A stretch of 64,000 bases of DNA from Planctomycetota bacterium (lineage in GTDB: Bacteria > Planctomycetota > Phycisphaerae > Sedimentisphaerales > Anaerobacaceae): assembly GCA_022566315.1 (NCBI GenBank), contig JADFJC010000002.1:34900-98899 (forward strand). Reading direction: 5' to 3'. Position 1 is the first letter of the stretch; every line of letters starts with the position of its first letter. Under the pieces are notes generated by a model. It ran no database searches. It was given only the letters and a program-made list of their open reading frames with translations, and was not told the origin of the DNA. Below, piece by piece: positions 9,916-40,295 of this stretch. The position numbers and the translations under genes were made by a program.

Positions 9916-9918
9916 GAT

Positions 9919-11238
9919 TTGGGAAATAACGCTGTTATCCAAGTGAATGGAGTATCCAAGAAGTTTTGCCGGAGCCTGAAGCGTTCGATGTGGTACGGCT
10001 TCCATGATATATTACGAGATACGGCTGGTCTTCGTTCCCAATCAGACCGGCTGCGCCGGAAGGAATTTTGGGCGGTTGATGACGTTTCTTTCGAGCTTAA
10101 AAAGGGAGAAACTCTGGGCATTATCGGCCCCAATGGTGCCGGGAAAACTACCCTTCTAAAGATGCTAAATGGTATTATCATACCTGATAAAGGTAACCTT
10201 CGAATAAAAGGCCGTGTCGGTGCCCTCATTCAAATTGGAGCCGGGTTTCATCCACAACTAACCGGCAGAGAAAACATCTATATTAACGGCGCTATCTTAG
10301 GTATGGGTAAACGCGAGATTGATAAGAAATTTGACGCTATCGTTGAATTTGCTGACATTGGAGATTTTTTAGACACGCCGGTTAAGCACTATTCAAGCGG
10401 TATGTTTGTAAGATTGGGCTTTGCTGTAGCAATACATTGTGAGCTGGATATACTCGTTGTGGACGAAATACTGGCAGTGGGGGATACAGCATTCAGGCGG
10501 AAATCATCGGAACGTATGAAAGAGCTTATTATGGATGGCAATACGTCAATTATATTGGTCTCTCATAATATGCAAACAGTAGAAGCTATCGCGGATAGAG
10601 CGATTCTTCTTAACGGTGGTAAAATGCTATACTCAGGTAACGTAAATGACGTTGTAGCTGAATACGACCTCTTGATGCGTCCTCGGCATAGGGAAAGAGT
10701 TGGAGCTTCACAAGGTGCCCCTCTTAAGAAAGGGGGATTAGAATTAGTTAAGAAATACGATGGCTATGCAGGCGACGAAGTTTCTATCCGAGGAGTCTGG
10801 CTTGAGTCAGCCGATGGCGAGTGCCGGACCCGGTTTTCCAGCAATGAAGACGTTGCTGTTTGTGTTTCTTATAAGAACTGTTCGAATATTACTATCCAAC
10901 ACGGGTTTGTATGGGTGACTTTTATAAACGAATATAATGTCAACTGCATGGGCGCACGACTACGTTTGGGAGAACACGGGACCCCCAGTATACTTCCAGA
11001 GTCGTGTATTTTACGTGTTTGGTTTCGTCCTCTTCAGCTTGCAACCAGCAACTACAAGATAGCTATTCATTTTTTCGACAAAACTTTTTTAGTTCCGTAT
11101 AGTACGGGACACTATGGGTACGTCAAAGTAGTTAATGATATCCCCACTATTACCCCGGGTGTTAAATCGCCGGTTTGTTGGCCTCCATGTGAATGGAATT
11201 TAGATACATCCTTAGGTAAAGAGGATAGAAAAACATGA
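9919..11238 (+). CDS. Polysaccharide ABC transporter ATP-binding protein with C-terminal domain (Wzt-like)
   Basis: GIIGPNGAGKTTLLKML Walker A, HYSSGMFVRLGFAVAIH signature, LVVDEILAVGD Walker B, ~170-aa extension; TTG start. Confidence 0.92.
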   Translation: MGNNAVIQVNGVSKKFCRSLKRSMWYGFHDILRDTAGLRSQSDRLRRKEFWAVDDVSFELKKGETLGIIGPNGAGKTTLLKMLNGIIIPDKGNLRIKGRVGALIQIGAGFHPQLTGRENIYINGAILGMGKREIDKKFDAIVEFADIGDFLDTPVKHYSSGMFVRLGFAVAIHCELDILVVDEILAVGDTAFRRKSSERMKELIMDGNTSIILVSHNMQTVEAIADRAILLNGGKMLYSGNVNDVVAEYDLLMRPRHRERVGASQGAPLKKGGLELVKKYDGYAGDEVSIRGVWLESADGECRTRFSSNEDVAVCVSYKNCSNITIQHGFVWVTFINEYNVNCMGARLRLGEHGTPSILPESCILRVWFRPLQLATSNYKIAIHFFDKTFLVPYSTGHYGYVKVVNDIPTITPGVKSPVCWPPCEWNLDTSLGKEDRKT

Positions 11239-20915: not shown

Positions 20916-22628
20916 ATGAAAGAGTTGTTGGAAACAATAGCAAAGTACAGAAGAAACGTAAACAGACTTGCTGTATTTTATTTGCTGGTGATTGTGCTGC
21001 TTTGTCAGTTTACCTATGCTGAACGGCGTATCAAGATCAGCCAATTCGGTATTACATGGACATTCAACAGGGATTATACTGTCGGCCAATTTGCGAACGG
21101 CGATTATTGGGTTCTCGGACCTATAACTATAATAGGGATAGACCCGCCGTCAACTGAAACAAACGGCCGTACTATAAACGGTTCAATGGTCAATCCTTTT
21201 CCAAAACTTGGCGCCACACAGGGCTACGATAGTGCAATGTATGGTAGCCATGGGCCGTATTTCGACCCAAATCTTAATGTTGGCCGACCTAATAACCGGG
21301 ACCTTATTCCAAGAAATCCCTTGGTTCTCCAGCCGCATTCTTCCTTGGTGTCCACTATCAGTATTCCAAAGCCGGGGAATAGACCGCAGCTTAGAACGGC
21401 AGCAATACTGACCGTACTTCGCGAGCCTGCTCCTGAAGGAAGTTTTAGACCTCCATACTGCGGCACCAATAAAACTATCAAGTTTAACAAAGACCAACTC
21501 GATTACTCCTGGCTTGCGAACTTAAGGCCTGTACCTGGTGCACCCGGTATTATGGCGGTAGAACGCTATTTTGAACGACCCTGGATAGACCATATCCCCG
21601 GCTGGATGGGCCGTTATCATCATCCAACAGAAAACATGCCCGACTACGGAAGAGAAATATCTACACGAATAGGCATTGGGGCGTTAAAGCTCAATCTTAA
21701 TCTTAACAACCAAATGAAAGAAGTGCTGCTTGTCCGTTTTGTACAGTTAGGTATCGACCTCTATGGTATAGTTCAAGACGGAGGGAAACGCAACTGGGTA
21801 AATAATGGTGGACACGCCAGTGGTCGCAAATGGCCCATTCTGTTTGCGGGGCTTGTGCTCAATGACCCGGATATGAAAAATATAGGTAGAATCGACATTG
21901 CAAACTATGGTCCATCACACCAGGAGTATGTTCATTTCGGAGAAGACGACCAGACTTTCTACGTAGGTGATGAGGATATTTATGAGCCACCATATAAAAG
22001 GCACGTGTGGCACGGCGGATTTGTTTATTATGGACATGGCAAAGGAGATAAACATCGCGATTATCTTGAATATACAGAAGAGCACCGAGACATACCCGAA
22101 TGGGGAATTGAACATGCGACAGACCGAAATCAGGATGGATTGGACTGGAATACATCTTATAGACCATCTTCCACAGCTAACGCCTGGGCGGGCTTTATCC
22201 TTACTGCGCATATTATGGGTGTAAAAGAACTATGGAATCACGATGCCCTCTTTGACTATATGGATCGTTATATGGAAGTCCAAAAACAAGTGGCAGGAGT
22301 AGGTCACTGGACAAGACAATGGTCCAGGTTCATCGCGAAAATGTGGGACGCCTACCGCCCGGATTACGGCCCTGTGTGGACAATGTCTCCCATTCTGAAC
22401 ATTGCCGCAACTGGTGGCTCGGTGACAAAAAGCCCCGATAAGGCAGCTTATACCCTTGGCGAAAAGGTAATCTTAAAAGCTGCTGCTGATGACGGATATG
22501 AGTTTGCAGGTTGGTCAGGTGGTTTGTCAGGAACCGAAAATCCTGTAACGATAATTATGCATGCCAACCGAACGGTTACTGCAAATTTTGCAACTCGCAA
22601 CAACACTCCAACACATAATTCGAAATGA
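20916..22628 (+). CDS. Secreted protein of unknown function with C-terminal InlB/bacterial-repeat-like domain
   Basis: Signal/TM near N-term; C-term ILNIAATGGSVTKSPDKAAYTLGEKVILKAAADDGYEFAGWSGGLSGTENPVTIIMHANRTVTANFA. Confidence 0.75.
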   Translation: MKELLETIAKYRRNVNRLAVFYLLVIVLLCQFTYAERRIKISQFGITWTFNRDYTVGQFANGDYWVLGPITIIGIDPPSTETNGRTINGSMVNPFPKLGATQGYDSAMYGSHGPYFDPNLNVGRPNNRDLIPRNPLVLQPHSSLVSTISIPKPGNRPQLRTAAILTVLREPAPEGSFRPPYCGTNKTIKFNKDQLDYSWLANLRPVPGAPGIMAVERYFERPWIDHIPGWMGRYHHPTENMPDYGREISTRIGIGALKLNLNLNNQMKEVLLVRFVQLGIDLYGIVQDGGKRNWVNNGGHASGRKWPILFAGLVLNDPDMKNIGRIDIANYGPSHQEYVHFGEDDQTFYVGDEDIYEPPYKRHVWHGGFVYYGHGKGDKHRDYLEYTEEHRDIPEWGIEHATDRNQDGLDWNTSYRPSSTANAWAGFILTAHIMGVKELWNHDALFDYMDRYMEVQKQVAGVGHWTRQWSRFIAKMWDAYRPDYGPVWTMSPILNIAATGGSVTKSPDKAAYTLGEKVILKAAADDGYEFAGWSGGLSGTENPVTIIMHANRTVTANFATRNNTPTHNSK

Positions 22629-23806
22629 CGCTCAAAGATAGTAAAGACATCTCGTATCTTTGTTTAGGCGGCGAGGATTGGTGGTATCATAACCGTGGCC
22701 ATATTGATATGCAGTTAATGCGCTGCTTTACCCGAAGGGGAACAACGCTTTATGTCAACTCTATTGTGATGCAAAAACCCAACCTGAAAAAGAACATTGG
22801 TGGCGGCAAAAGTTTTTCTCATAAATTGATTCGCAAAACAAAAAGCATATTTCGTGGTTTGCGCAAAAGTGGGGCCGGCTTTTGGGTTTACAGTCCCTTT
22901 TCCCTGCCCGTTCATCACATTGCTTGGCTAAAGCTTGTGAACGACACTGTTGTGCGACTCCAACTGCTGACCGTAATGCGTAGGTTGAAGATGTGTGCCC
23001 CGATGGTTTGGATAGCTTGTCCCGCAGCCTGTAATGTTGCCATTAAGATGAAAAAGAACAAGCTCGTTTACCAGCGGACAGACCGGTTTGAAGAATATCC
23101 CAATGTAAATGCTGAACTCATCAGACAATACGACCTCACGCTAAAAGCTAATGCTGACTTAACAATATTTGTAAGTGAACAGTTATATAAACAGGAATAT
23201 GCCCAGTGCAAAAAAGCACTTTTTCTCGACCATGGTGTGGATTTCGATGTGTTTGCCACGGCCCAAAACAACAAAGAAATACCCTCAGACATAAGGGATA
23301 TAAACAGGCCGATTGTGGGGTTTTTCGGTGGTATTGATGACCACACCTCTGACATTGACCTGGTGAAAAAGATTATTGACTTACTGCCGGAAATGAGTTT
23401 TGTGTTCATCGGTAACTCGTCAATAGACTGTAGAGAGTTGCTTGCAAAAAAGAACGTTAAAATGCTCGGGCAAAAACCTTATGAGCAAATACCCCATTAC
23501 GGCAAGTGTTTCAATGTAGCAATTATGCCCTGGCGGCAGAACCGCTGGATTGAGACGTGCAATCCTATCAAACTTAAAGAATACCTGGCACTGGGCAAAC
23601 CTGTAGTTAGTACACCATTTACCGAATTGCAAAAATACCAAGATGTGGTTTACCAGGCTAACACACCTGAAGAATTTGCCAAATGCATAGAAAAGGCGCT
23701 GGCAGAAGACAGCCCAGAGCGTGTTGCTGCCAGAAGGAAAAAAGTTGAGACATCTACATGGGATAGCAAGGCTAAATTGGTGCTGAATGAATTGTTTGAG
23801 AAATGA
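22625..23806 (+). CDS. GT4-like glycosyltransferase (TuaH-like)
   Basis: ADLTIFVSEQLYKQEYAQCKKALFLDHGVDFDVF...CNPIKLKEYLALGKPVVSTPF. Confidence 0.82.
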   Translation: MTLKDSKDISYLCLGGEDWWYHNRGHIDMQLMRCFTRRGTTLYVNSIVMQKPNLKKNIGGGKSFSHKLIRKTKSIFRGLRKSGAGFWVYSPFSLPVHHIAWLKLVNDTVVRLQLLTVMRRLKMCAPMVWIACPAACNVAIKMKKNKLVYQRTDRFEEYPNVNAELIRQYDLTLKANADLTIFVSEQLYKQEYAQCKKALFLDHGVDFDVFATAQNNKEIPSDIRDINRPIVGFFGGIDDHTSDIDLVKKIIDLLPEMSFVFIGNSSIDCRELLAKKNVKMLGQKPYEQIPHYGKCFNVAIMPWRQNRWIETCNPIKLKEYLALGKPVVSTPFTELQKYQDVVYQANTPEEFAKCIEKALAEDSPERVAARRKKVETSTWDSKAKLVLNELFEK

Positions 23807-23846
23807 AAGTGAAAACCCAATATCTATGCCACCTACAAATACCAAA

Positions 23847-24296
23847 ATGAAAATATGTTTGATTGCATCGGCAGGAGGACACTTAACCCAACTGCTGAAG
23901 CTGTCGGAGAGTTGGCAGTGTTACAAAACTTTTTGCGTTACCACATCGGATGTTGTCAGAGAAAAACTTCAAAAATATGGCAAGGCTTACACTGTCGGTG
24001 AGTGCAACCGTGAACATCCTTTGCGGGTCATTTTGGTTCTAATGCGGTGTATAAATGTAATTTTACACGAAAGGCCTGACGTTGTGATAAGCACGGGATC
24101 AGCGGTGGGCTGTATCATGTGCTTTCTCAGCAAACTATTAGGCGTAAAAATCGTGTGGATTGATAGTATTGCAAATGTGGAGCGGATATCGCTGTCGGGT
24201 AGAATGGTCCGGCACATAGCTGACCTGTTCCTTGTGCAGTGGCCCGAACTTGTTGAGCAATATAGTGATGTGGAATACGTAGGCGCGGTGATATGA
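23847..24296 (+). CDS. Alg14/PssD-like UDP-GlcNAc transferase membrane subunit
   Basis: MKICLIASAGGHLTQLLKLSESW...RPDVVISTGSAVGCIMCFLSKLLGVKIVWIDS. Confidence 0.85.
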   Translation: MKICLIASAGGHLTQLLKLSESWQCYKTFCVTTSDVVREKLQKYGKAYTVGECNREHPLRVILVLMRCINVILHERPDVVISTGSAVGCIMCFLSKLLGVKIVWIDSIANVERISLSGRMVRHIADLFLVQWPELVEQYSDVEYVGAVI

Positions 24297-24775
24297 TTTT
24301 CCTAACGGTTGGCACACAATTTCCGTTTGACCGTCTCGTCAAGACTGTGGACCAGGCCCTTGATGGGAGACTGGTCAATGAAGAAATTTTTGCCCAAATA
24401 GGAGAAACCTCATATAAGCCGCTCAATTTTGAATCTGTGGTATCACTGGAGAAGAACCTTTTCGATAAGCGCCTGAGGGAGGCCTCAAGTGTAATCAGCC
24501 ATGCTGGTATGGGTACGATAACGATGGCATTGAAAAACCATAAACCATTGTTGGTTATGCCGCGCCTGAAGCGATATCGGGAGCATGTCAATGACCACCA
24601 GGTTGCCACCGCCAGGAAGTTTGAGGAGCTTGGCCACATATTGGCTGTGTATGATGCCAAAGATTTGCCTAATGGGATTCGCAAGTTGAAGAACTTTATT
24701 CCAAGAGAAAGAAAAGCCAATCCTGAAGCAGTAGCTGATAGAATTCATCGTTTTCTGAATAGTTTGCAGGACTAA
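24293..24775 (+). CDS. Alg13/PssE-like glycosyltransferase family 28 catalytic subunit
   Basis: MIFLTVGTQFPFDRLVKTVDQAL...VISHAGMGTITMALKNHKPLLVMPRLKRYREHVNDHQ; ATGA-type overlap with previous gene. Confidence 0.9.
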   Translation: MIFLTVGTQFPFDRLVKTVDQALDGRLVNEEIFAQIGETSYKPLNFESVVSLEKNLFDKRLREASSVISHAGMGTITMALKNHKPLLVMPRLKRYREHVNDHQVATARKFEELGHILAVYDAKDLPNGIRKLKNFIPRERKANPEAVADRIHRFLNSLQD

Positions 24776-24790
24776 CGTTAGATAAAATAA

Positions 24791-26806
24791 ATGCCAGGCA
24801 AACAGCTAATCAAAGCTATTATACTTGTTGGCAGCCGTGACTTTGGACGTTGTCCGTTGACATCGCGGTTACCAACAGCCTTGTGGCCGGTAGTGGGAAA
24901 ACCTGTCTTGGAACGTTTGCTAACTTCTTTAGCCGACCAGGGTATAAAGCAGGTAATAATTTGTTCTAACGGCGATGGTCCACTGCTGCAACAATCAGTT
25001 CACGCCGATAATCGTTTGGAGTTGAATTTTCTGGATGAGCCGCTGCCGGTCGGCACGGCAGGTTGTATTCGCGATGCTGCCGGTAACGAAACGGATGCAT
25101 TACTTCTGGTATTTCCAGCCGGTATAATGTGTCCCCCTAAAATCGATGTCCTGATAAAGACCCACCGTGAGGGTCAGTCCGATTTGACTGTGATGTTTAA
25201 TCCAGCCTGCGGGAACGATAAGTCGTTGGGCGAACCGGCAGGGATTTATGTCTGTGAAACCAGCATCCTGAAACATATTCCAAAAGCCGGCTATTTCGAT
25301 ATCAAGGAAGGCTTAATTCCTGAAATGCTCCGTGCCGGCAAAACTGTTTACGCGGCAACGTTGCAAAACCACGCCGGCAATTTTCGGATTCGGCGAGAAT
25401 ATCTGTACGCTATCACTAATTACCTGGAAAACAGCCCAAAACTGGATGCGGACTTGAAACCCTCTAAGGGTGCTGATTCACAAACTGTGTGGATAGCAGC
25501 TAATGCTAAAGTTGAGCCGGGTGCGCGAATTTACGGGCCGGCCGTTATTATGGATGGCGCCTGCGTCTCAAATGACGCGGTCATTCTTGGGCCGACTATA
25601 CTCGGAAACAATGTCACTATCGGCAAAGATAGTGTTGTTGTAAACAGCGTGCTATGGGAAGGTGCACGAGTAGGGCCAAATTGCCAAATCCAACGATGTT
25701 TACTCGGCCACAACGCGGCTTTGCGAGCTAATACTGTTGCCGAAGAAAAGTCCATACCATTTAAGCCGAAGGGAATACTTGAACGTTCAGCCGGCCGGGC
25801 TTTGAAAGTTTCAAAAAATAACGCGAGCAGATTGCAGCATGCACTGCAACCGACGCTTCGTAAAGTCAACTCCGCAGGACACCTAATGGTGGAAAAATTG
25901 CCAAGTTGGGTACAATCGCGCAAAACAAAAATTGTCCCCTGGCTTGCGGGCAGTCTCGTTCTAATTGCATTTCTCTGGTCTTATAAGGCCGGCCTTGCAG
26001 ACCTTTGGAATATATGGCAAAGAAGTGACGAATACTCCAGCGGCCTATTAGTTCCTTTTCTGGCTGTTTATATCCTGTGGTCGAGGCGTCATGATATTGC
26101 TCAGTGTAAAATAAGGCCTTCTGTTTGGGGTTTGTTTGCCTTCATAGCTGCGCAGGCCATCAGACTTTTCGGGTTGTTCTTTATGTACAGCTCAGCAGAA
26201 AGATTATCCATTGCTCTAACTATTGCTGCACTGGTACTGCTTCTGTTTGGCTGGCAGCTTCTCCGAAAGGTATCTACGGTATTATTGTACCTATGTTTGA
26301 TGCTTCCCTGGCCCAACCGTATGCAGGCGGCCGTGACATTGCCTTTACAACGTTGGGCCACTTCGTCAGCCGTATTTTGTCTGGAGATGGTGGGTTACGA
26401 GGTCGTACGGGAAGGCAATGTTATACATATCGGCGATGTAAGCGTTGCAGTAGCTGAGGCATGCAACGGCTTGAGAATGATCACCGCATTCTTTGTGATT
26501 AGCGGTCTGGTTGTCCTGCTGGTCAAGCGGGCATGGTGGGAAAAACTGATAGTCTTAGTTTCGAGCCTGCCTATCGCTTTACTGTGTAACACTGTTCGAT
26601 TAGCAATCACAGCGTCATTTTTCACAGTACTTGAAGGCGAGCATTGGGAAAAGATATTCCACGACTTTGGCGGATATGCAATGATGCCATTGGCCCTTGC
26701 GGCAGTGGTCGCGGAGCTTTGGCTTTTGGCAAAACTTACCACACCTCCAGACAAGGAAGAAGCAATAATAATTAAACGACAAAATAGAGTGGTGAGTGGG
26801 GAGTGA
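24791..26806 (+). CDS. Fusion: NDP-sugar nucleotidyltransferase + hexapeptide (LbH) + exosortase
   Basis: N: GRCPLTSRLPTALWPVVGKPVLERLLTSLADQGIKQVIIC; middle: hexad repeats ARIYGPAVIMDGACVSNDAVILGPTILGNNVTIG; C: YSSGLLVPFLAVYILWSRR...AVAEACNGLRMITAFFVISG...LPIALLCNTVRLAI. Confidence 0.9.
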   Translation: MPGKQLIKAIILVGSRDFGRCPLTSRLPTALWPVVGKPVLERLLTSLADQGIKQVIICSNGDGPLLQQSVHADNRLELNFLDEPLPVGTAGCIRDAAGNETDALLLVFPAGIMCPPKIDVLIKTHREGQSDLTVMFNPACGNDKSLGEPAGIYVCETSILKHIPKAGYFDIKEGLIPEMLRAGKTVYAATLQNHAGNFRIRREYLYAITNYLENSPKLDADLKPSKGADSQTVWIAANAKVEPGARIYGPAVIMDGACVSNDAVILGPTILGNNVTIGKDSVVVNSVLWEGARVGPNCQIQRCLLGHNAALRANTVAEEKSIPFKPKGILERSAGRALKVSKNNASRLQHALQPTLRKVNSAGHLMVEKLPSWVQSRKTKIVPWLAGSLVLIAFLWSYKAGLADLWNIWQRSDEYSSGLLVPFLAVYILWSRRHDIAQCKIRPSVWGLFAFIAAQAIRLFGLFFMYSSAERLSIALTIAALVLLLFGWQLLRKVSTVLLYLCLMLPWPNRMQAAVTLPLQRWATSSAVFCLEMVGYEVVREGNVIHIGDVSVAVAEACNGLRMITAFFVISGLVVLLVKRAWWEKLIVLVSSLPIALLCNTVRLAITASFFTVLEGEHWEKIFHDFGGYAMMPLALAAVVAELWLLAKLTTPPDKEEAIIIKRQNRVVSGE

Positions 26807-27064: not shown

Positions 27065-29431
27065 GTGATAAAAATGAACGACTTAGAAAAATATCATGAT
27101 AATGACCAGGTAATTGAACAAAAGGTTGTTAGTTTTGAAACCCTGCCAGAACCTGACGGTCCAAACACATCTGATTTACTTAAAGGTGTGCTGTGTCACT
27201 GGCCTATAGTGCTTGTAACGTTTGTGTTGATTTGCGCTATTGGGATTCCAGCGGTATGGTATCTGATAGAACCTAAATACTGTGCCACTGCGTCAATTCG
27301 GGTGGCACCAATCATTCCTAATATCCTTTTCAGCGATAAGGACTCTGAACGTGTAATGCCAATGTACGAGAACTTCAAGAACGACCAGGCAAGGCTTATC
27401 ACGATAGATCAAAGAATTCTTATACGGGTGGCAGATGACCTTGCAGATAAGGGGCTTAAGTTCTTTGAGAACAAAAGGCCTTTGTCCGAAAAACCGGTCG
27501 GTTTAGTGAAAACTTTCTTTCAAGCGATAAGGAAGAAAATTATTACCACTATGTCGCCCGAAAAACCAGCCGACCCAGTTGAAGCTCTCCGGCAGGCGAT
27601 AAGTGGGGAAATTATTACTGCTACTCCGGTCCGGGGCAGCGAAATGATAAACATTTATGTGGTAAGCACCGAGCCTAAAGAAGCGGTAAAAATAGCAAGT
27701 TCTTTTCGCACAGCTTATATGATTATAGAAGGTAACGAATCGACTGAGGAAGGATATCAAAAACTACAACTCTTGAAAAAGGAACGCGACTCATTTGCAA
27801 ATAAATTAGATTTACAAAAGAAACTCATACGTGAATCGGCGGAAGAGTATGGCACTGTCGAGTTAACTCCACACCAGGAGATGATGCTCCAGCGGGTAGC
27901 GGCTCTACGAAGCCTTGCAACTAAAATAGACGTAGATAAACTCCTTTTAAAGATAAAAATAAAGCTTCTCAAAGAAACTAAGGATGATTCAATTTTTCAG
28001 AGAGTCTTGCTGGAAAGGCGGCACACGTTTATTCAAAACGACCTTTTGGTTCAAATGTTGACCAAGCGTATAGCTCAATTGGAGGAGGAGCTTATTTCCG
28101 CCGGGCAAATTCTGTCAAGCGAAAACACTCAACTTAAACGAAGAACCGAGCTTTTAGAAGCTTTTAAAACTAACCTGGAAGAACATCGTAAAAAGGTTGA
28201 AAAAACTTTCGATGAAAGTATCACTGAAGAACTAAGCGAGAATAGAGAGGCTGAGCTTGCCGATGCAGAACTTGAGTTGCGGGGATTAGAGGCCCAGGGA
28301 GAGATCTTACAGACTAAAATAGACAAAGGAGACCTCGATACAATACAGCTTGGTCGTAAACAATTAGACATCACGGAGCAGCAAGAGCAGTTAGCTCTCA
28401 CCAAGGAAGTGTATGATACTATTCGGCGGCGTATTCAGCAACTGGAGATGGAAGGGAAGCGGCCTGCCCGAATATCTGTTCCTTATGAAACCACGGTTGC
28501 TTCTGTGTCAAACAAACGCGTTAAATACACAATGGCCATTATGTTCGGCTCAATGGCTTGCGGAATGATGTTAGCCTTTCTAAGAGACAAAATGGACCAT
28601 CGCTTGCGTACACCTGAAGATGTGACTAAACGCATGGGTATTCGAATAATCGGCACTACGACCAGCTCACACAATATCAAACCGTCTCTTCTTCCGGAAC
28701 ATATAGTCGAAGACTACCAAACCATTCGCGCCAATTTAGGGTTACTGGATGGCGAAGGAATACCTAACAAATTGGTTGTTACAAGCCCGGGGATGCGGGA
28801 GGGCAAAACAACTTTCTCCGTTAATCTGGCAACAAGTTTATCCGGAGCAGGGAAAAAGGTTTTGCTTATAGACGGTGACTTGAGAAAACCTGGTGTTGCA
28901 CATTTGCTGGATCTGCCCGAAGGCTCAAATGGGCTGCAGGATGTACTTTTAGGGAAGGAATTCGACCAGGCTGTTTACTCTATAGCTTCGACCGGCCTGG
29001 ATGTGCTGGCTGCCGATCCTCACAGCAGAACCAATGGCTACGAACTATTAGCTTCGCCGGGGACACGCCAGTGCATAGATATGCTCAGCCAAAACTACGA
29101 CCACGTGATTATTGATACTCCTCCTATACTGGCTTTTCCTGATGCGCTTATATGGGCCAAATTTGGAGATGGGGTTATTTTGACCAGCTTCGCCGGCCGA
29201 ACTACTACGCCGGAACTCAAAGAGGCGAAGGAACGGCTAATGAAAATAAATGTCAGATTACTGGGCGTAGTGTTAAGTAACGTCCAAGCCGAGCAGAGTT
29301 ACTACCGTTATAGACACAATTATTACGCACAAAATGCCAAATCAAGGAAAACTGTCAAGCGAGCAAAAAGAAGGCTGCTCCCTATGCAAAGCATAGAGGA
29401 CAATCCCAGCAATTCCACAGTTCCTGAGTGA
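27065..29431 (+). CDS. Wzc-like polysaccharide co-polymerase / bacterial tyrosine kinase
   Basis: Wzz-type N-term, coiled-coil, LVVTSPGMREGKTTFSVNLATSLSGAGKKVLLIDGDLRKPGVAHLL, C-terminal Tyr cluster SYYRYRHNYYAQ. Confidence 0.92.
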   Translation: MIKMNDLEKYHDNDQVIEQKVVSFETLPEPDGPNTSDLLKGVLCHWPIVLVTFVLICAIGIPAVWYLIEPKYCATASIRVAPIIPNILFSDKDSERVMPMYENFKNDQARLITIDQRILIRVADDLADKGLKFFENKRPLSEKPVGLVKTFFQAIRKKIITTMSPEKPADPVEALRQAISGEIITATPVRGSEMINIYVVSTEPKEAVKIASSFRTAYMIIEGNESTEEGYQKLQLLKKERDSFANKLDLQKKLIRESAEEYGTVELTPHQEMMLQRVAALRSLATKIDVDKLLLKIKIKLLKETKDDSIFQRVLLERRHTFIQNDLLVQMLTKRIAQLEEELISAGQILSSENTQLKRRTELLEAFKTNLEEHRKKVEKTFDESITEELSENREAELADAELELRGLEAQGEILQTKIDKGDLDTIQLGRKQLDITEQQEQLALTKEVYDTIRRRIQQLEMEGKRPARISVPYETTVASVSNKRVKYTMAIMFGSMACGMMLAFLRDKMDHRLRTPEDVTKRMGIRIIGTTTSSHNIKPSLLPEHIVEDYQTIRANLGLLDGEGIPNKLVVTSPGMREGKTTFSVNLATSLSGAGKKVLLIDGDLRKPGVAHLLDLPEGSNGLQDVLLGKEFDQAVYSIASTGLDVLAADPHSRTNGYELLASPGTRQCIDMLSQNYDHVIIDTPPILAFPDALIWAKFGDGVILTSFAGRTTTPELKEAKERLMKINVRLLGVVLSNVQAEQSYYRYRHNYYAQNAKSRKTVKRAKRRLLPMQSIEDNPSNSTVPE

Positions 29432-29480: not shown

Positions 29481-31283
29481 ATGAATCTGATTATCATACA
29501 TAAAAACAATCCGCCGGTTGCGGGCGCAAAAAGCAGCGGTGATAATGCTACTCTGCGAAGTACTTCGCTGCGAAGCACGAGCCTTCTTCGGTTTGCTCTG
29601 GCCAACGAGCCTATTGCCGGTGTCGTTCTCGATGGCTTAAGCAAAAGCTTACGTTGGGGCCGCAACGGAAAAAATGTCTGTGCCATTCCAGAAGAATGGA
29701 ACGTTAAATCTCATGTGCCCAGGTTAAAGACAGTATCTTACACTGAAAATGTGCCAATCTTCCCGGAGTTCCTGCGGAAAGCTACCTGTGGCAGAGCTAC
29801 CTGTGGCAGAGCTAAACGAGACAAATGGTTTGTTATTTCCAACGGACGCTTTGCCACGCAAATTGATAGCCAACTACTTAACAAACTACTGGTCAAAATC
29901 CAGGCGGACATAGTGGCGGTTAATGTCGAGCCTGACCTGTTGGGCAAACGAGAAAAAATGCGATTGACAGCTCAGGGCAAGGTAGCAGGTTTCCGTCGAT
30001 TGTACTGTGATTCGGCCGAACTTTTTCCTTTATATGAATCAAGCAGATGCTTGCCTGTTTTCACCGATTGGCCTCATCATCTTTTTGTTAAAACCAGTAT
30101 TATTGACCAGCTTCTTATACCTGGGGCACAGGTACCTGGGGCACAGGCTGATGGTGTTTTACCTCAATCCTTTTCCGCTCTTTTAGACAAGTGCCTATCA
30201 AATTCATTGAGGTCGTGTGGAATTAATATAGGCGGGGCTGTATTGGATTTAGGAACGCAAGATGGCTTGTTGAACTTTTGCAGGACCGTTCTAAATTCTC
30301 GATTCTCGATTCTCGATTCTCGACGAGTATCCAGCATCGAGCATCAAGCATCGGATTCAAGATTAGTTGGGAAAGTATTGTTAGGGAAAAACGTTTGCAT
30401 CGGCCCAAAGACAATCGTGGTTGGCCCAACCATCATTGGCGATAACGTGAAGATTAAACAAGGAGCGGTAATAAACTCATCTATCATTGGCCCGAAAGTC
30501 TCAGTACCGCAGAACAAACTTGTGCAGAACTGCATTGTAAAAGGACCACGAACGAATTGGAAACTGCTAACTCGCTCGGCTAACAATAGTTCAAAGCAAA
30601 TTTACTATCCGGCCTTCGAATTGGACCGCAAACAACGCACCAACGATACCTTCCGCACTTGGCCAAGGTTTTCTTACGCAGGCAGCTTCAAGCGAATTGC
30701 TGATTGTTTTGTTGCAATAATAGTAATAATTCTATTTGCTCCCATAATACCCTTCATCGCCTTAGCGACAAAATTAACTTCGCCCGGCCCGGTGTTTTTT
30801 AAGCATAGACGGCAGGGACTCTATGGGAAAACATTCAACTGTATAAAATTCCGGACAATGCACCTCGGCGCCGATGAGATGCAGGATAAACTACGATTCG
30901 TTAGTAGAGTCGATGGCCCACAATTCAAGATGACCGATGACCCGCGAATCAGCGCCGTCGGCAGATTCCTGCGAGAGACATATTTAGACGAAATACCTCA
31001 ATTCATCAATGTTTTACTTGGCCAAATGAGCGTCGTTGGTCCAAGACCTTCTCCTGAATCGGAGAATACGTTGTGTCCATTTTGGCGTGACGCCCGATTG
31101 TCTGTTCGCCCGGGAATAACGGGACTCTGGCAGATTTTCAGAACACGCCAGCCAATGAAAGACTTCCAGGAATGGATACACTATGACACCGAATATGTCA
31201 GAAATATGTCACTAAAGATGGACTTATGGATATGCTGGAAAACAACCAAAAAGCTGTTTGATAACTTCATCAACCAATTCTAA
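29481..31283 (+). CDS. Hexapeptide-repeat domain fused to undecaprenyl-phosphate sugar transferase (PF02397-type)
   Basis: KNVCIGPKTIVVGPTIIGDNVKIKQGAVINSSIIG, then KRIADCFVAIIVIILFAPIIPFIALATKLTSPGPVFFKHRRQGLYGKTFNCIKFRTMH...DEIPQFINVLLGQMSVVGPRP. Confidence 0.9.
   Translation: MNLIIIHKNNPPVAGAKSSGDNATLRSTSLRSTSLLRFALANEPIAGVVLDGLSKSLRWGRNGKNVCAIPEEWNVKSHVPRLKTVSYTENVPIFPEFLRKATCGRATCGRAKRDKWFVISNGRFATQIDSQLLNKLLVKIQADIVAVNVEPDLLGKREKMRLTAQGKVAGFRRLYCDSAELFPLYESSRCLPVFTDWPHHLFVKTSIIDQLLIPGAQVPGAQADGVLPQSFSALLDKCLSNSLRSCGINIGGAVLDLGTQDGLLNFCRTVLNSRFSILDSRRVSSIEHQASDSRLVGKVLLGKNVCIGPKTIVVGPTIIGDNVKIKQGAVINSSIIGPKVSVPQNKLVQNCIVKGPRTNWKLLTRSANNSSKQIYYPAFELDRKQRTNDTFRTWPRFSYAGSFKRIADCFVAIIVIILFAPIIPFIALATKLTSPGPVFFKHRRQGLYGKTFNCIKFRTMHLGADEMQDKLRFVSRVDGPQFKMTDDPRISAVGRFLRETYLDEIPQFINVLLGQMSVVGPRPSPESENTLCPFWRDARLSVRPGITGLWQIFRTRQPMKDFQEWIHYDTEYVRNMSLKMDLWICWKTTKKLFDNFINQF
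29547..29581 (+). repeat. 35-bp repeat copy inside CDS
   Basis: gctactctgcgaagtacttcgctgcgaagcacgag; 33/35 identical to 31304-31338. Confidence 0.9.
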
Positions 31284-31372: not shown

Positions 31373-34300
31373 ATGCCAAGAAGATACTTTAACTGGAAAC
31401 TGGCAATTGTTCTGGTAATCAGTATCGGTGTTTTAGGTGTAACCGCTTTTGGACTGCGCCAATGGCAGAGAACTAACAGGGCCGAACAGGGACTTGTCCT
31501 CGGCAATAAGGCGTATGATGAACAAAAGTGGGAACAAGCAGTAGCGAATCTTGGCCGGCATCTGACTGTGGAGCCGGATGATGTGCCCACGCTGCTCAAA
31601 TACGCCGAGGCACAGCTTAAAATCAGACCTTCCAAACGCAACAATATTCAACAAGCCATATCGGCTTATCGAACCGTTTTGAGAGCAGACAAAAACAATT
31701 CCGAAGCTGCTATGCGACTTACTGAAGTATATTTAATGATGGGAATGCCTGGGGAGGCCGAGTTAATTGCCAACAGACAGCTCGAAACAAATGATGACCC
31801 TGAGCTTCGCAGAATCTTGGCCCTGGCGCTGGCTAGACAACGAAAGTTCAGTGAAGCAGCGGCACAATTGAAGAGCATCTTACAAGAACATCCTGACCAG
31901 ATATTGGTTTATGAAACATTGGGTCAACTGATAGAGCAGCGTCCGGATGATTTCCCTGACTCCAACGATTGGTTTAACGAAGCGGTGAAGAATAATCCGT
32001 CCTCGGCCCTGGCATATATAGTCCGTGCCGGTTTCCATCGAAGAGCCAAAGACAGCACCAAAGCTTTAAGTGACTTAGAGCAGGCTGAAAAACAGGATTT
32101 GTCTGACCCTAATGTGGAGTTGCGCCTTGCCAGCGAATTTATTTATGCAAACAATCTGGATAAGGCAGAGCAACATCTCACGGCTGTGCAAACGACCTCG
32201 CCGACAGACCAGGGTCTCTGGCAAACATGGGCTCAGCTCGCACTGAAATCACAGTCGCAGGAAAAGATGCTAAAAGTAGCCGAGACCGGCTTAAAAGAGC
32301 TTTCTTCTCAGCCCTGGGATTTTATGCCAATAGCTACAGAGTTGTTTATCCGTTGCGACCAACTCGACCGCGCTGCCGACTGCATCACCAAAATGAACCA
32401 AAAGGACGTCGCACCCGTAACGGTTGCATTCCTGGAAGGTCTTGTAGCTGCCGAGAGAGAACATCTGTTTGAGGCCATTAAACATTGGCAGCAGTCAATG
32501 GCATTGGCAGATAAATCATCAGAGGTTCACGCAAAGGTTCGCTTAAATGTTCAATTGGCGTTATCAAAAGCTCTGTCTCGCTTAGGCAACACACAATTGG
32601 CGCTGCGGCATTTGCGCACGCTTGTTTCCGAAAGGCCTAATCTCTTCAGTGGACATCTGGCCTTGGCCAAACTGTCAGCCCAGACCGGAAACTGGACTGA
32701 CGCAGCCGAGCACGCCGAAACGGCAAAGCGACTTTCGCCGGAAAATACTGGTGCTGCTTTACTATATATACAAGCTCGAATACAACTATTGGCGGCAGGC
32801 TCAACAGGTGAAAATGACCAAATGTGGCAGGACATAGAAAAGGATTTGTCCGCATTATTAGAGAAAGCCTCTAACGGCGCTCTCGAGGTCAAACTTTTAC
32901 AGTACCAGCTCGCACTACGACAGAGCAATTTCGCCAATGCCCAGGCCTTGGTAACTCAACTGAAGAAGGACCATCCTTTGCAAATAAGGATTGCTATGGC
33001 TGAAGCTGAGTTGCTCATTGCTCAGGACAAGATGAATGAAGCAATATCGATGTTAAACAAAACGATGGAGGAATTTCCCCAGAACGTTGAACCGGTAAGA
33101 TACATTGCGATTTTATTAAACCGGCAAGGCAATCAAGAAAAATGCGAAGCAATTATTAAAGATGCGTTGGCGCGCATTGACCAGCCTGTCAACCAGCGCA
33201 CATTAGGCCTGCTGCTTGCCGAATTTTATTCTCTGTGGAATCAGAAAGACGATGCTTACCCAACACTTAGTGCACTTGCAGAAAAACTGCCCGATGACAT
33301 TCCTGTAAAACGCCGACTTTTACTGTGTGAACAGGTTATCAAAGACCCCGAAAAAGCCCAGCAGCTCGTCAACGACATCAAGTTACTCGAGGGCGAGGAT
33401 GGCTGGCAATGGCGACATGAACAAGCAAAACTCTGGTTTGCAGCAGATGATTTCAAAGTCCGTTATCCCCAAATTGTTTCGCTCCTGCAGGAAAATATGC
33501 GGGCAAACTCGAACGACCAGGCAAGCCGGATGCTCCTGGCGGCAGCCTACGATCGTTCCGGCGAGCTGCGACTGGCAATTTCGACATACCGTGAAGCCCT
33601 GAGCCGCTCTCCGGATGACCTTCGTATAATAATGCCGACTGTCGCCGCACTCTACAAAGCAAACAAGCCAGAGGAATATGACGAGGCCGACCAGCTTTTG
33701 AGCCGAGTTTCCCAACAAAAGCACCCACAACTTCAGCAACTGCAATTGCAAAGCTACCTCAGGCACGGCGAGTTAAGTTTAGCCTCAGATATTCTGCAGG
33801 ACTTTATCAGTAATGACCCTAATAACCAGGCTAACCGTCTTTCTCTTGCATTACTCAAAACACAGCAAGCTAAGTTTGACGAGGCTGGAGAATTACTGGA
33901 TGAACTAAAGGCCAAGAGCCCTAACTCACTGCCTATAACTTATGCACAGATCCAGCTCAACATTCGTCAAAATAAATCCGCAGAAGCATTGAAACTTTGT
34001 GATGAAATAATAAACAACCTTGACAACGCATACGCTTATGTGCTTCGCGCCAGAACATATGATTCTCTGGGGCAGGCGGATAAGGCGTTACGAGACTTTG
34101 AGCACGCTGCTGCCATCGAACCCAACAACGTTAGTGTATGGATGGCCCGGAGTGACTTTTACCTTTCTATGGGCCAGACAGATAAGGCGATTGCTGATAT
34201 TCAACAGGCACTATCTTTGGGCTTGAGCGATATCCAAATCCAAAAACGCGCTATTCTGCTACTCTTTGAATCGGGAGACGCCGAAAAAATTCGTCAGGGA

Positions 34301-35590
34301 AAAGTCCTTATTGATGAGGCTCTGCAATCAAATCCTGACGATGTTGACCTGCGGCTGTTCAAAGCTAAATCACTGCTCACAGAAGGAATGGCTCCAGCTA
34401 TCAAAAATGCCACGCGGATTCTTCAAAAGATAACCGAAGACCAACCTGAAATCAGTCAGGCCTGGGCGCTTCTGGGAAAGATATCGTTCTCACAAAAACA
34501 GTTCTCCAAAGCTATGGATGCCGCTTTGCGAGGCCTTGCCCATACACCCAACGATAGGACGTTACTCCTGTTGAAAGCTGGTGCCGAGGCAAAACGGTCG
34601 CCTGTCTTGGCAATTCCAACTCTCAAAATGTTGCGAGAACTGGACCCGAACAATACCGACGCCGCAATGTTCCTGGCCAACACTTATATTACAACAAAAG
34701 AGCCGCGAAAGGCCGTAAATATTCTCAAGGCACAATTAGTCTCTCGCGCCGGAACCCAGGACGAGCGAAGAATAAAGGTCGCCCTTGCCGTAGCGTTGCA
34801 CAAGAACGGCAACAAGGCAGATGCCCAAAAGGAATTTGACTCTCTGATTCAGTCTGAACCAAATGACCCAGTTCCCTTATTAGCTCAAGTACGGTTACTC
34901 AAAGATGACCAATTATGGAGTGAGCTTAGCCAAAAGGTCACAGACTGGTACCAAAAGCACCCAGAAGACAGCCGTACGCCTATCATTATTGCCAGGAACC
35001 TGGTAACAACTGATAACAGCCAGGCCAAGAAAACAGCCGAAGATATACTTCGGATAATGTTGAAAAATGATTCTGATTCTATTGAGACTATGACTGCCCT
35101 TGCTATACTACTATACACCATTGGTCGTTCTGACGAATCTGTGCCACTCTATCAACGGACGCTTCAGCTTAAGCCTGACAATCTAATCATCATCAACAAT
35201 CTGGCCTGGATAATGTGCGAAGAGCAGGGCAATTTCCAAGAGGCGCTCGAACTTGCCCAGAGGGGACTACAAATATCACCGAACTATATTGACCTTATCG
35301 ACACCCGCGGTGTTGCGTATTACCGGCTGGGCGAATTCAACAAGGCCGTCGAGGATTTCACTACGTGTATCAAACTCTACCCAGACGGAACACCGGCAGC
35401 TATCTCCGCACGTTTTCATTTAGCAAGGGCTTTTGACAAACTCGGACAAAAGGATAAAGCTGTCAAACGTCTAAACCAGGCCTTGGACATGTACCAGGCT
35501 TTGGACCCAGCCGACCGAATAGGTGCTTTATCAGATACTGACCTGGACGAGGCACAGCGTCTGCTCAAACAATTGCAGGAGGACGGTTAA
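31373..35590 (+). CDS. Giant membrane-anchored TPR protein (PEP-CTERM/EPS-system TPR type)
   Basis: N-terminal TM WKLAIVLVISIGVLGVTAFGL, then many 34-aa TPR units (e.g. NAYAYVLRARTYDSLGQADKALRDFEHAAAIEPNN). Confidence 0.85.
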   Translation: MPRRYFNWKLAIVLVISIGVLGVTAFGLRQWQRTNRAEQGLVLGNKAYDEQKWEQAVANLGRHLTVEPDDVPTLLKYAEAQLKIRPSKRNNIQQAISAYRTVLRADKNNSEAAMRLTEVYLMMGMPGEAELIANRQLETNDDPELRRILALALARQRKFSEAAAQLKSILQEHPDQILVYETLGQLIEQRPDDFPDSNDWFNEAVKNNPSSALAYIVRAGFHRRAKDSTKALSDLEQAEKQDLSDPNVELRLASEFIYANNLDKAEQHLTAVQTTSPTDQGLWQTWAQLALKSQSQEKMLKVAETGLKELSSQPWDFMPIATELFIRCDQLDRAADCITKMNQKDVAPVTVAFLEGLVAAEREHLFEAIKHWQQSMALADKSSEVHAKVRLNVQLALSKALSRLGNTQLALRHLRTLVSERPNLFSGHLALAKLSAQTGNWTDAAEHAETAKRLSPENTGAALLYIQARIQLLAAGSTGENDQMWQDIEKDLSALLEKASNGALEVKLLQYQLALRQSNFANAQALVTQLKKDHPLQIRIAMAEAELLIAQDKMNEAISMLNKTMEEFPQNVEPVRYIAILLNRQGNQEKCEAIIKDALARIDQPVNQRTLGLLLAEFYSLWNQKDDAYPTLSALAEKLPDDIPVKRRLLLCEQVIKDPEKAQQLVNDIKLLEGEDGWQWRHEQAKLWFAADDFKVRYPQIVSLLQENMRANSNDQASRMLLAAAYDRSGELRLAISTYREALSRSPDDLRIIMPTVAALYKANKPEEYDEADQLLSRVSQQKHPQLQQLQLQSYLRHGELSLASDILQDFISNDPNNQANRLSLALLKTQQAKFDEAGELLDELKAKSPNSLPITYAQIQLNIRQNKSAEALKLCDEIINNLDNAYAYVLRARTYDSLGQADKALRDFEHAAAIEPNNVSVWMARSDFYLSMGQTDKAIADIQQALSLGLSDIQIQKRAILLLFESGDAEKIRQGKVLIDEALQSNPDDVDLRLFKAKSLLTEGMAPAIKNATRILQKITEDQPEISQAWALLGKISFSQKQFSKAMDAALRGLAHTPNDRTLLLLKAGAEAKRSPVLAIPTLKMLRELDPNNTDAAMFLANTYITTKEPRKAVNILKAQLVSRAGTQDERRIKVALAVALHKNGNKADAQKEFDSLIQSEPNDPVPLLAQVRLLKDDQLWSELSQKVTDWYQKHPEDSRTPIIIARNLVTTDNSQAKKTAEDILRIMLKNDSDSIETMTALAILLYTIGRSDESVPLYQRTLQLKPDNLIIINNLAWIMCEEQGNFQEALELAQRGLQISPNYIDLIDTRGVAYYRLGEFNKAVEDFTTCIKLYPDGTPAAISARFHLARAFDKLGQKDKAVKRLNQALDMYQALDPADRIGALSDTDLDEAQRLLKQLQEDG

Positions 35591-37155: not shown

Positions 37156-37779
37156 TTACTCCTGGTTCTTGACGATTTCAGGTGCTTTTTGCAATATTCT
37201 GTCGGCCAATCCGTATTCGATTGCTTCGGCTGCGTCCATCCAGAGGTCTCTGTCGCAGTCTTTTTCAATTTTCTCGACGGTTTGGCCCGTATGTTTGGCC
37301 AATATATCATAAAGCCGAGCGCGCAGTCTAAGTATTTCCCGTGCTTCGATATCGAGGTCGGTAGCCGTTCCAACCAATTGTCCCGTGATTAAGGGCTGGT
37401 GCAGAAGAATCCTGTTGTTTGCCAGCAGGAAGCGTTTACCCGCCTTACCGCCGGCCAATAACAACGCTGCCATACTTGCTGCCTGCCCGATGCAATACGT
37501 CGCAACGTTACAACGCAGAAACTGCATCGTGTCATACACTGCGAACCCGGCTGTGATTGAGCCGCCGGGCGAATTGATGTAAAAATGGACATCGTTCTTG
37601 TTGTCTTCATTGCTCAAAAACAGCATCTGGGCAATGATTAGATTGGCGGATGTATCCTCAATCGGCCCACCAAGAAAAATTATCCTGTCTTTCAGCAGTC
37701 TTGAATAAATATCGTACGCGCGTTCGGTTCGGCCACTTTTCTCAATTACTATCGGAACCAGGGTCTGATTAACTATCAT
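37156..37779 (-). CDS. clpP: ATP-dependent Clp protease proteolytic subunit (paralog 1)
   Basis: [40 protein letters not shown] (Ser); HQPLITG (His). Confidence 0.95.
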
Positions 37780-37875
37780 ATTTACCTCTAAGACTAAAAA
37801 CTTAAACTTAAAAACGAAAAATCACAATTCAAAATTAAAATCCGAAAATCGAATATCGGATTTCAGATTTTTTTT

Positions 37876-38547
37876 TCACTTTTTCTTTTTGTTGTTCTTT
37901 TTTCCCTTTTCTTTTTTATCTTTGTCTTTATCTTTATCTTTATCTCCATCTTTATCTTCATCTTTGTCTTTATCTTCTTCGCGCAGCACCTCGTCGATAA
38001 GGCCGTATTGTTTAGCCTCATCGGCAGTCATATATCTGTCTCTTTCAGTCTCAGCGGCGATTTTTTCGACCGGCTGGCCGGTGTGTCTTGCAAGAATTTC
38101 GTTTATCATAACTTTGGTTTTGAGGATTTCTTCGGCCTGGATCTTAATGTCGGCTGCCTGGCCGCTGACACCGCCCCAGGGCTGGTGAAGCATAATCTTG
38201 GCGTGTGCAAGGGCGTGCCGTTTGCCTTTTGTGCCGGCTGACAGTATTATGGCAGCACCGGACTGAGCTCTTCCGATACAGAAGGTTGCTACCGGCGAGC
38301 TGATGAAGCGTATCGTATCATAAATAGCCATCGTATCGTCAACGCTGCCGCCCGGGGAATTGATATACAAGCTGATTTCACTCTTACGCTTGAGATTGTC
38401 CAGATACAGCATCTTCATAATTACCTCAGCAGCCCTTTCATACGATATCTCCCCTATCAAAAACACAATCCGGTTCTCTAACAGCATATCGTCCAGACTC
38501 ATCTGGCGGTAGCGCTGATATTGGCCGTATTGATTGTACACATCCAT
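37876..38547 (-). CDS. clpP: ATP-dependent Clp protease proteolytic subunit (paralog 2) with K/D-repeat C-terminal tail
   Basis: MDVYNQYGQYQRYRQMSLDDMLLENRIVFLIGE; GRAQSGAAIILSAGTKGKRHALAHAKIMLHQPWGG; tail EEDKDKDEDKDGDKDKDKDKDKKEKGKKNNKKKK. Confidence 0.93.
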   Translation of the reverse strand: MDVYNQYGQYQRYRQMSLDDMLLENRIVFLIGEISYERAAEVIMKMLYLDNLKRKSEISLYINSPGGSVDDTMAIYDTIRFISSPVATFCIGRAQSGAAIILSAGTKGKRHALAHAKIMLHQPWGGVSGQAADIKIQAEEILKTKVMINEILARHTGQPVEKIAAETERDRYMTADEAKQYGLIDEVLREEDKDKDEDKDGDKDKDKDKDKKEKGKKNNKKKK

Positions 38548-38777
38548 ACTTTGGGGTCCTGTTTTGCAATAAGCCGTAAAGTGGGAACCCTTCACAATGT
38601 TTCCTGCACGATGTTCAATAAACATTCATTGCTTCCTTAATATGAAGTTCGTATTTTTTTACAACTCGTGTTTCGGCAAGCGAATACGTTTTTATCGGAT
38701 ATTTTTACTCGCTGGTTCTCTTGTTTTACCCCATTTTTGTAATATATTATTCCCCATTACGGAGTTTCCAGGGACGT

Positions 38778-40295
38778 CTAACTGTTCTTTTTGCGTTTTT
38801 GGGGTTGTTTTTTCTCGGCCCCGGCTGGCTTTTCAGCGGTTTTTGTCGCCGATTTCTTAGTGGTTTTTCGGGCTTTTTTGGCTTTCTTTTCGGACTTTTT
38901 TTCCGTTATTTTTGCTGTCTCAAGCAGTTCGGCGATACACTTATTTTGGCGTACCTCTAACTTGAACTGAGCTAACGAGCCATCACGTTCCATGTCCTCT
39001 CTCATTCTTTCGGGCCTTTGTCCTCGCTGAATGGCTATCTGGGCGATATGGCCGTTAATCTCTTCTTCGCTGGCATCAATCTCGAGCTTATCGGCAACTT
39101 TGTCCATAATAAAGAATGTTTTTAGCTGTTTCCTGGCTTGTTCTTCACTGCCGGCTTGAAGCTGCTCCATCTGCTCTTCGAGCTGCTCACGGGCCAAGCC
39201 CCGCATCATCAAATTCGTATATTGCCTTTGCAGCAGTGTCTTTGCCTGCGCAGCAACAACGTCTAACGGCAAGTCGAAATCAGTGTTATCGAGCAGATAC
39301 TCATAAATCTGCTCGCTCATTTGAGTTCGAGCTTGTGTCTCTAATCGGCTCTGCAGGGAATCCTCGGTTTTTTCCCGCAGCTCGTTTTCATCTTCGATAC
39401 CAAGTCTCGTGAGGAAGTTTTCGTCTAACTCGGCGGGCTTGAGCCATTTGATATCTTTGATGGCGATTTGGATGTCCACCTTTTTGCCGCGATATTCTTC
39501 TCTGAAATACGTCTTCGGGACATCGACGCTTATCTGTTTGGTTTGGCCGGCTTTGGCACCTGCCAACAATTCGTCGAGCTTCTCAACCGGGATTTGGCCA
39601 ACAAAACCGTTTTGCCTTACATATATCTCGATGTTGTCGAGTTTCTGTTCTTCTTCGATGCCCTCGGCCTTAATAAGCGCATCGGCAATTATCTGGTCAT
39701 CGGGCTCAACAACTCCATCCTTACGCGGTGTCCATATACCTGACCATCTTTGTAATCGCTCAATCTCTCTATCGACTTGCTCATCCGTAACTTCCAGTTT
39801 TGTCCTGGTTACCGGAATGCCTTCGAGCTGCGGCAAGTCAAAGTCAGGACGCACTTCGACCTCAAAATCAAACTTCAGCGGGCCTTCAGCCGGCATCTCT
39901 ATATTTTCAAAATCAATGTCCGGCTCGCCTATGATCTGCACCTCATTGTCCTTGATGGCTGACTCGCTCGCATCGGCTAACAATTTCAATTTGATTTGCT
40001 CAGTTGTATCCTTGCCGAACCTTTTTTCCAGCAGTCGGCGCGGTGCTCGACCCTTTCGAAAGCCCGGCACCAGCGCTTCTTTGCGCAGAGTGTTGTATTG
40101 TTCATCAGTAACGTTCTTAATTTTCTCTTCCGGTATCTCTATAGAGACCTTTTTTTTGCAGGGGCCTGCTTCTTCGATTGTTACTGTGTTTTTCAGTGCT
40201 GTGGATTGTTCTTCTTCCGTTGCCGTTGGCTGTTCTTCTTCCGTTGCTGTGGCTTGTTCTTCTTCCGGTGTCGTGGATTGTTCTTCCTCGGCCAT
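38778..40295 (-). CDS. tig: Trigger factor with repetitive acidic N-terminus and Lys-rich C-tail
   Basis: KKVSIEIPEEKIKNVTDEQYNTLRKEALVPGFRKGRAPRRLLEKRFG; FKBP-like middle and C domain. Confidence 0.93.
   Translation of the reverse strand: MAEEEQSTTPEEEQATATEEEQPTATEEEQSTALKNTVTIEEAGPCKKKVSIEIPEEKIKNVTDEQYNTLRKEALVPGFRKGRAPRRLLEKRFGKDTTEQIKLKLLADASESAIKDNEVQIIGEPDIDFENIEMPAEGPLKFDFEVEVRPDFDLPQLEGIPVTRTKLEVTDEQVDREIERLQRWSGIWTPRKDGVVEPDDQIIADALIKAEGIEEEQKLDNIEIYVRQNGFVGQIPVEKLDELLAGAKAGQTKQISVDVPKTYFREEYRGKKVDIQIAIKDIKWLKPAELDENFLTRLGIEDENELREKTEDSLQSRLETQARTQMSEQIYEYLLDNTDFDLPLDVVAAQAKTLLQRQYTNLMMRGLAREQLEEQMEQLQAGSEEQARKQLKTFFIMDKVADKLEIDASEEEINGHIAQIAIQRGQRPERMREDMERDGSLAQFKLEVRQNKCIAELLETAKITEKKSEKKAKKARKTTKKSATKTAEKPAGAEKKQPQKRKKNS
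40194..40289 (-). repeat. 4 x 24-bp coding tandem repeat in tig
   Basis: EEEQSTTP/EEEQATAT/EEEQPTAT/EEEQSTAL. Confidence 0.9.

Follow-up and report, generated by a model that had tools for sequence, protein, structure and literature searches.

A planctomycete exosortase fused to a GMPPA-like pseudo-nucleotidyltransferase and its proposed tie to polysaccharide initiation

The window analysed here, a 64,000-nucleotide stretch from a Planctomycetota genome of the order Sedimentisphaerales (class Phycisphaerae; 4.2 Mb in 244 contigs), carries a single gene in which a pseudo-nucleotidyltransferase (pseudo-NTase), a left-handed beta-helix (LbH) and an exosortase are joined (Table 1). As the initial annotation had led one to expect, this exosortase lies among exopolysaccharide (EPS) genes, and the order in which fusion, Wzc-like kinase, PGPT (the initiating sugar-phosphate transferase) and PrsT-like TPR protein follow one another is conserved. 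Specifically, among the 51 fusion loci with enough sequence, a Wzc-like gene lies within 3 kb downstream in all 51 and a PGPT within 7 kb in 50 (2.7 kb in the window), and the TPR protein is present in 48. The cluster also includes a protein whose C-terminal domain resembles InlB B-repeats (20916-22628). Judged by eye, its upstream end is marked by the permease and ATPase of a polysaccharide ABC transporter (9046-11238), and two ClpP-like genes in tandem lie on the reverse strand at 37156-40295 together with a gene whose product ends in a Lys/Ala-rich tail.

Table 1 Features of the locus, in window coordinates, with the evidence for each
Feature	Coordinates	Strand	Evidence
Glycosyltransferase, PssD-like and PssE-like genes directly 5' of the fusion	22625..24775	+	Pfam, NCBIfam; upstream in many loci
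Fusion gene, pseudo-NTase - LbH - exosortase, 671 aa	24791..26806	+	ORF, Pfam, NCBIfam, homologues in the order
Pseudo-NTase domain, residues 6-215	24806..25435	+	PF00483 E 3.8e-10; model; Foldseek matches
Degenerate signature loop, residues 12-34 (LVGSRDFGRCPLTSRLPTALWPV)	24824..24892	+	GxGxR...PKP Arg and Lys substituted family-wide
Retained GTAG nucleotide loop, residues 88-91 (G88, A90, G91)	25052..25063	+	Conservation, 84 fusions
DIKE family signature, residues 170-173	25298..25309	+	Conservation, 84 fusions
LbH (hexapeptide) domain, residues 232-322	25484..25756	+	PF00132, PF25084, PF24894
Helical K/R-rich linker ahead of first TM helix, residues 330-380	25778..25930	+	Charge count; model low-confidence here
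Exosortase domain, residues 381-650	25931..26740	+	PF09721 E 5.8e-57; TIGR02602 148 bits
Catalytic Cys558 codon	26462..26464	+	Invariant in alignment A2
Catalytic Arg603 codon	26597..26599	+	Invariant in alignment A2
Conserved His624 codon	26660..26662	+	Invariant in alignment A2
Wzc-like chain-length / tyrosine autokinase gene	27065..29431	+	TIGR01007 136 bits; 51/51 fusion loci
PGPT with N-terminal extension and LbH	29481..31283	+	PF02397 E 2.9e-60
N-terminal core of the PGPT (residues 1-285), probably another pseudo-NTase, more eroded	29481..30335	+	Model fold matches
PGPT LbH, related to fusion LbH	30348..30539	+	HHalign probability 99.6, E 5.5e-24
PGPT catalytic domain, D503-E504 intact	30690..31259	+	PF02397 residues 404-593
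Large TPR protein, PrsT-like (PEP-CTERM/XrtA-associated family)	31373..35590	+	TIGR02917 287.5 bits, cut-off 312.2

The three-part protein that the initial annotation had described in a single frame proved real: the open reading frame starts with ATG and runs uninterrupted, and a profile search of each third returned the families it had named. Pfam matches NTP_transferase at residues 9-137 (over the curated cut-off), Hexapep at 233-266, LbH_EIF2B at 232-322 (the best LbH profile for the protein, slightly under its own cut-off) and Exosortase_EpsH at 392-646, inside the stretch of about 370-650 expected to hold the exosortase. The predicted structure likewise separates an alpha/beta domain (6-215) from beta-helix strands (about 246-316), which are followed by a linker helix and, beginning at residue 381, by the helical bundle of the exosortase; how NTase, LbH and exosortase sit relative to one another is uncertain (mean pLDDT 75.5, pTM 0.48). 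In Foldseek, the model comes nearest to tlr0611, VTC1 and the GMPPA/GMPPB complex, and the matches include an eIF2B subunit; the NTase fold is indicated by the PF00483 match together with a Foldseek probability of 1.00 to NTases.

Judged by its residues, the exosortase part is complete, with its catalytic residues intact. Over the membrane domain, PF09721 scores 193 bits against a cut-off of 25.7 and the general exosortase model TIGR02602 148 bits against 105.55, and C558 and R603, which fall in the AEACNGLR and CNTVRLA motifs picked out initially, are invariant together with H624 across the 33 members of alignment A2 (32-79% identity to the window protein). The fusion thus shares the complete membrane domain and the invariant Cys, Arg and His of known exosortases (EpsH/XrtA superfamily, PF09721, TIGR02602). 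Like them, it neighbors EPS genes and a PrsT-like TPR protein, and its genome encodes PEP-CTERM substrates at other sites. It differs from them in its large N-terminal pseudo-NTase-LbH part and in lying far under the cut-offs of named subtypes, none of which was reached among the NCBIfam models listed (XrtA 143 bits against 208, XrtD 178 against 400, XrtW 163 against 425). XrtD and XrtW, the best-scoring of these over the membrane domain, are models of about 490 positions that match the fusion only at positions 2-273 and have no NTase-LbH part. With 11 K/R to 2 D/E before the first TM helix and 1 to 4 around the Cys loop, the charges fit an NTase-LbH part in the cytosol and a Cys loop on the extracytoplasmic side.

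Four PEP-CTERM matches over cut-off were found in the source genome, with the proteins encoded on other contigs. Of 159 genomes examined from the order, 157 encode such proteins; they are near-universal there, so their co-occurrence with the fusion is uninformative. Two exosortase genes were found in the source genome, the second being a divergent stand-alone enzyme (C64:31467-32273, L002) under all named subtype cut-offs, so that the PEP-CTERM proteins may be substrates of either enzyme. Related genomes also hold a clade of closer stand-alone exosortase paralogues (L202-L207, L211-L213), about 41-45% identical to the fused domain.

The N-terminal NTase part is, from its residue pattern, a pseudo-enzyme throughout the family, in line with the initial suspicion that it is probably non-catalytic. 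Aligned to human GMPPB, whose signature is GxGTRLxPLTxxxPKP, the window protein reads GSRDFGRCPLTSRLPTA, and the position of the metal Asp is Gly111. Across 84 distinct fusions, the GxGxR Arg is retained in one, the metal Asp in one, and the Lys at the PKP position is rare, falling outside the eight commonest states; two ordinary NTases from the same loci, taken as controls, retain Arg, Lys and Asp. The fusion family therefore does not show the combination of GxGxR...PKP and metal Asp that defines a sugar-1-phosphate nucleotidylyltransferase, and has instead the GMPPA-like pattern of an NTase-LbH architecture without catalytic residues. Other positions are strongly kept: G88 and G91 are each found in 83 of the 84 and A90 in 80, while in the DIKE signature D170 and K172 are present in all 84 and E173 in 82. 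That the GxAG loop and DIKE are near-invariant over such large sequence divergence suggests that a functional pocket is kept, probably one for a nucleotide or NDP-sugar. Stand-alone and PGPT-fused relatives of the module have a residue pattern similar to that of the fusions.

The fusion is no product of assembly. Full-length homologues, as single continuous matches, are found in at least 64 of 161 Sedimentisphaerales genomes from several families, single-contig genomes or chromosomes among them (CP070728, CP070806, CP070675, CP070678, CP070830 and CP070782 are 'chromosome' records), and further genomes of the order match it as two pieces within one frame. This recurrence, which extends to other Planctomycetota families, answers the question of conservation across the phylum and rules out a chimera, or two genes joined by an assembly error. 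In a named-genome scan that also covered phyla beyond Planctomycetota, the best 80 of 120 relatives belong almost wholly to Planctomycetota metagenome-assembled genomes (Phycisphaerae, Sedimentisphaerales), which bears out the planctomycete origin that had been proposed. Three contigs labelled Pelotomaculum, Candidatus Kuenenia and Acidobacteria (L119, L132 and L150) carry the same locus type and are probably mis-binned or mislabelled planctomycete DNA.

The module is also found in other arrangements. Module-exosortase fusions are not confined to Sedimentisphaerales: L182-L186 and L188-L190 come from a different group at class level, and L222-L224 from one more family in the phylum, with NTP_transferase and Exosortase confirmed by Pfam in L183, L188 and L222. 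Elsewhere, the module stands alone ahead of Wzc and PGPT (L142-L153 and L195-L200 are examples), where the Wzc-like gene is present in 14 and the PGPT in 15 of 15 loci; it is split from an adjacent exosortase gene (L120, L138, L141, L201, L227); or it is fused directly to PGPT (L187, L191-L194, L225), with NTP_transferase, LbH and Bac_transf confirmed by Pfam in L187 and L193. The module tree and the exosortase-domain tree both set the two principal groups of fusions apart. One common origin is nevertheless not rejected by AU tests (p 0.248 and 0.436), and repeated independent fusion in L182-L186 and L188-L190 and in the window's group is therefore not claimed. In four loci of the fused clade (L109, L111, L113, L066), the module lacks an exosortase and Wzc and PGPT still lie downstream, as if the exosortase part had been lost secondarily. 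In L199 and L226, module, PGPT and stand-alone exosortase share one locus in a different order, with the exosortase downstream of PGPT.

The PGPT of the window, in which D503 and E504 are intact and invariant, itself carries a probable second and more eroded copy of the pseudo-NTase module. Its 285-residue N-terminal core matched no Pfam or NCBIfam family, and the profile-profile comparison with the NTase core of the fusion was not significant (E 0.054) and was dropped as evidence of NTase homology. The fold match was retained: because the whole-PGPT model resembles VTC1, tlr0611 and GMPP across about 390 columns, the core is read as probably a second pseudo-NTase. Residues 1-285 of the PGPT could also represent a new domain family.

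Exosortases fused to EpsI and to CAAX-protease-like domains have been on record since 2006, and so has the gene link between exosortases and exopolysaccharide (PMC1569441). In the open-access literature searched, with the hexapeptide/pyrophosphorylase angle covered through titles and abstracts, no description of an NTase-LbH-exosortase fusion was found; on that coverage, an exosortase carrying a GMPPA-like pseudo-enzyme would be a previously unreported type of exosortase fusion. The nearest parallels come from other systems. GMPPA, a catalytically dead NTase with LbH and a paralogue of GMPPB, is among the top fold matches of the fusion; it binds GDP-mannose and acts as an allosteric inhibitor of GMPPB (PMC11228364). 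The module of the fusion differs in being bacterial and membrane-tethered to an exosortase, with distant identity only, and the likeness is one of architecture and fold. The N-terminal halves of eIF2B gamma and epsilon are non-catalytic NTase-LbH units that act as assembly domains and recall the LbH_EIF2B profile of the fusion, but they belong to a translation factor with no membrane enzyme attached. Finally, the cytosolic DUF of WbaP-type large monotopic PGTs is a non-catalytic domain on a polysaccharide-initiating enzyme and has been assigned a nucleotide-sensing role, although it is linked to UDP-sugar dehydratases, not NTases, and is not joined to an exosortase (PMC10942596).

The available data are compatible with a model, which we prefer tentatively, in which a non-catalytic cytosolic adaptor or sensor links the exosortase with the start of polysaccharide synthesis. 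The N-terminal half would be a cytosolic pseudo-NTase and LbH that has lost catalysis and probably kept its nucleotide or NDP-sugar pocket, and would act as both adaptor and sensor towards those membrane enzymes of the operon by which surface assembly is started and finished, in a mode resembling that of GMPPA, eIF2B gamma/epsilon or the WbaP DUF. In Phycisphaerae, the module would work with the initiating PGPT, whether free, fused to it, or beside a PGPT with its own degenerate NTase-LbH extension; in the window's lineage, covalent joining would make the exosortase part of the polysaccharide-initiation complex. PEP-CTERM proteins would then be cleaved and transferred where, and perhaps only when, the lipid-linked glycan is made, and the module may couple sorting to NDP-sugar supply. 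Several observations favor this reading: the catalytic residues are lost while G88/G91, D170/K172 and E173 are kept; the module occurs exosortase-fused, stand-alone and PGPT-fused; a Wzc-like gene and a PGPT follow in nearly all fusion and stand-alone loci; the closest folds include GMPPA/GMPPB, of which GMPPA is a regulatory non-catalytic paralogue; the non-catalytic cytosolic domain of WbaP senses nucleotides; the charge bias favors a cytosolic module and a Cys loop on the outer side; and PEP-CTERM proteins occur in the source genome and throughout nearly all of the order. We infer ligand binding from the retained residues and joint action with both exosortase and PGPT from fusion and synteny; likewise, we infer the pairing of the two modules and the physical and functional coupling. 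The initial annotation had proposed that the fusion couples either precursor-sugar activation or sensing to sorting, and it is the sensing part that is plausible and preferred here; activation is not supported, since a protein that lacks the catalytic residues would hardly be expected to activate sugars.

The main rival is a scaffold without a ligand, in which the pseudo-NTase-LbH merely oligomerizes, for instance with the PGPT LbH, and keeps the exosortase within the polysaccharide machinery, much as eIF2B gamma/epsilon serve to build a complex. The family-wide alteration of several ligand-contacting positions, the clear relationship between the two LbH domains and the presence of eIF2B subunits among both sequence and fold matches are in its favor, but the near-invariant GxAG loop and DIKE, kept despite large divergence, suggest a pocket, and we regard a pure scaffold as somewhat unlikely. 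It is improbable that the fusion is a by-product of gene order, in which adjacent genes were joined by stop loss and share co-expression with no further coupling: the split adjacent pairs and the loci where the exosortase is lost and the module stays (L109, L111, L113) fit such a history, whereas the maintenance of the fusion through the deep divergence seen in alignment A2 speaks against it, and adjacency to an exosortase leaves the PGPT-fused modules unexplained. An active but diverged sugar-1-phosphate nucleotidylyltransferase making NDP-sugar at the membrane, the activation version of the earlier proposal, would account for the NTP_transferase match and the GMPP-like overall fold, but is very improbable because Arg, Lys and both metal Asp positions are substituted in nearly all members while the control NTases are intact. 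Scarcely tenable is an acyl- or acetyltransferase that modifies a sugar through its hexapeptide repeats, with the NTase part a relic, since the LbH belongs to the short type associated with NTases, as seen in GMPP and eIF2B, and none of the acetyltransferase families in the NCBIfam list reached cut-off.

To our knowledge, the field has no settled answer as to the acceptor of exosortase transfer or the tie between sorting and exopolysaccharide. A more specific version of the adaptor/sensor reading, which we hold to be doubtful, is that the module is an NDP-sugar-sensing adaptor joining PGPT to exosortase, that the PGPT-primed glycan lipid is the acceptor or co-product of the exosortase, and that sorting is gated by sugar-nucleotide supply; if true, this lipid would fill a role long sought in exosortase transfer. 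Taken together, a module fused to an exosortase in some genomes and to a polysaccharide-initiating enzyme in others constitutes domain-fusion evidence of joint action, and it names a concrete pair of proteins, the exosortase and the PGPT. Regulatory pseudo-nucleotidyltransferases, represented in eukaryotes by GMPPA and eIF2B, also appear to extend to bacterial surface assembly.
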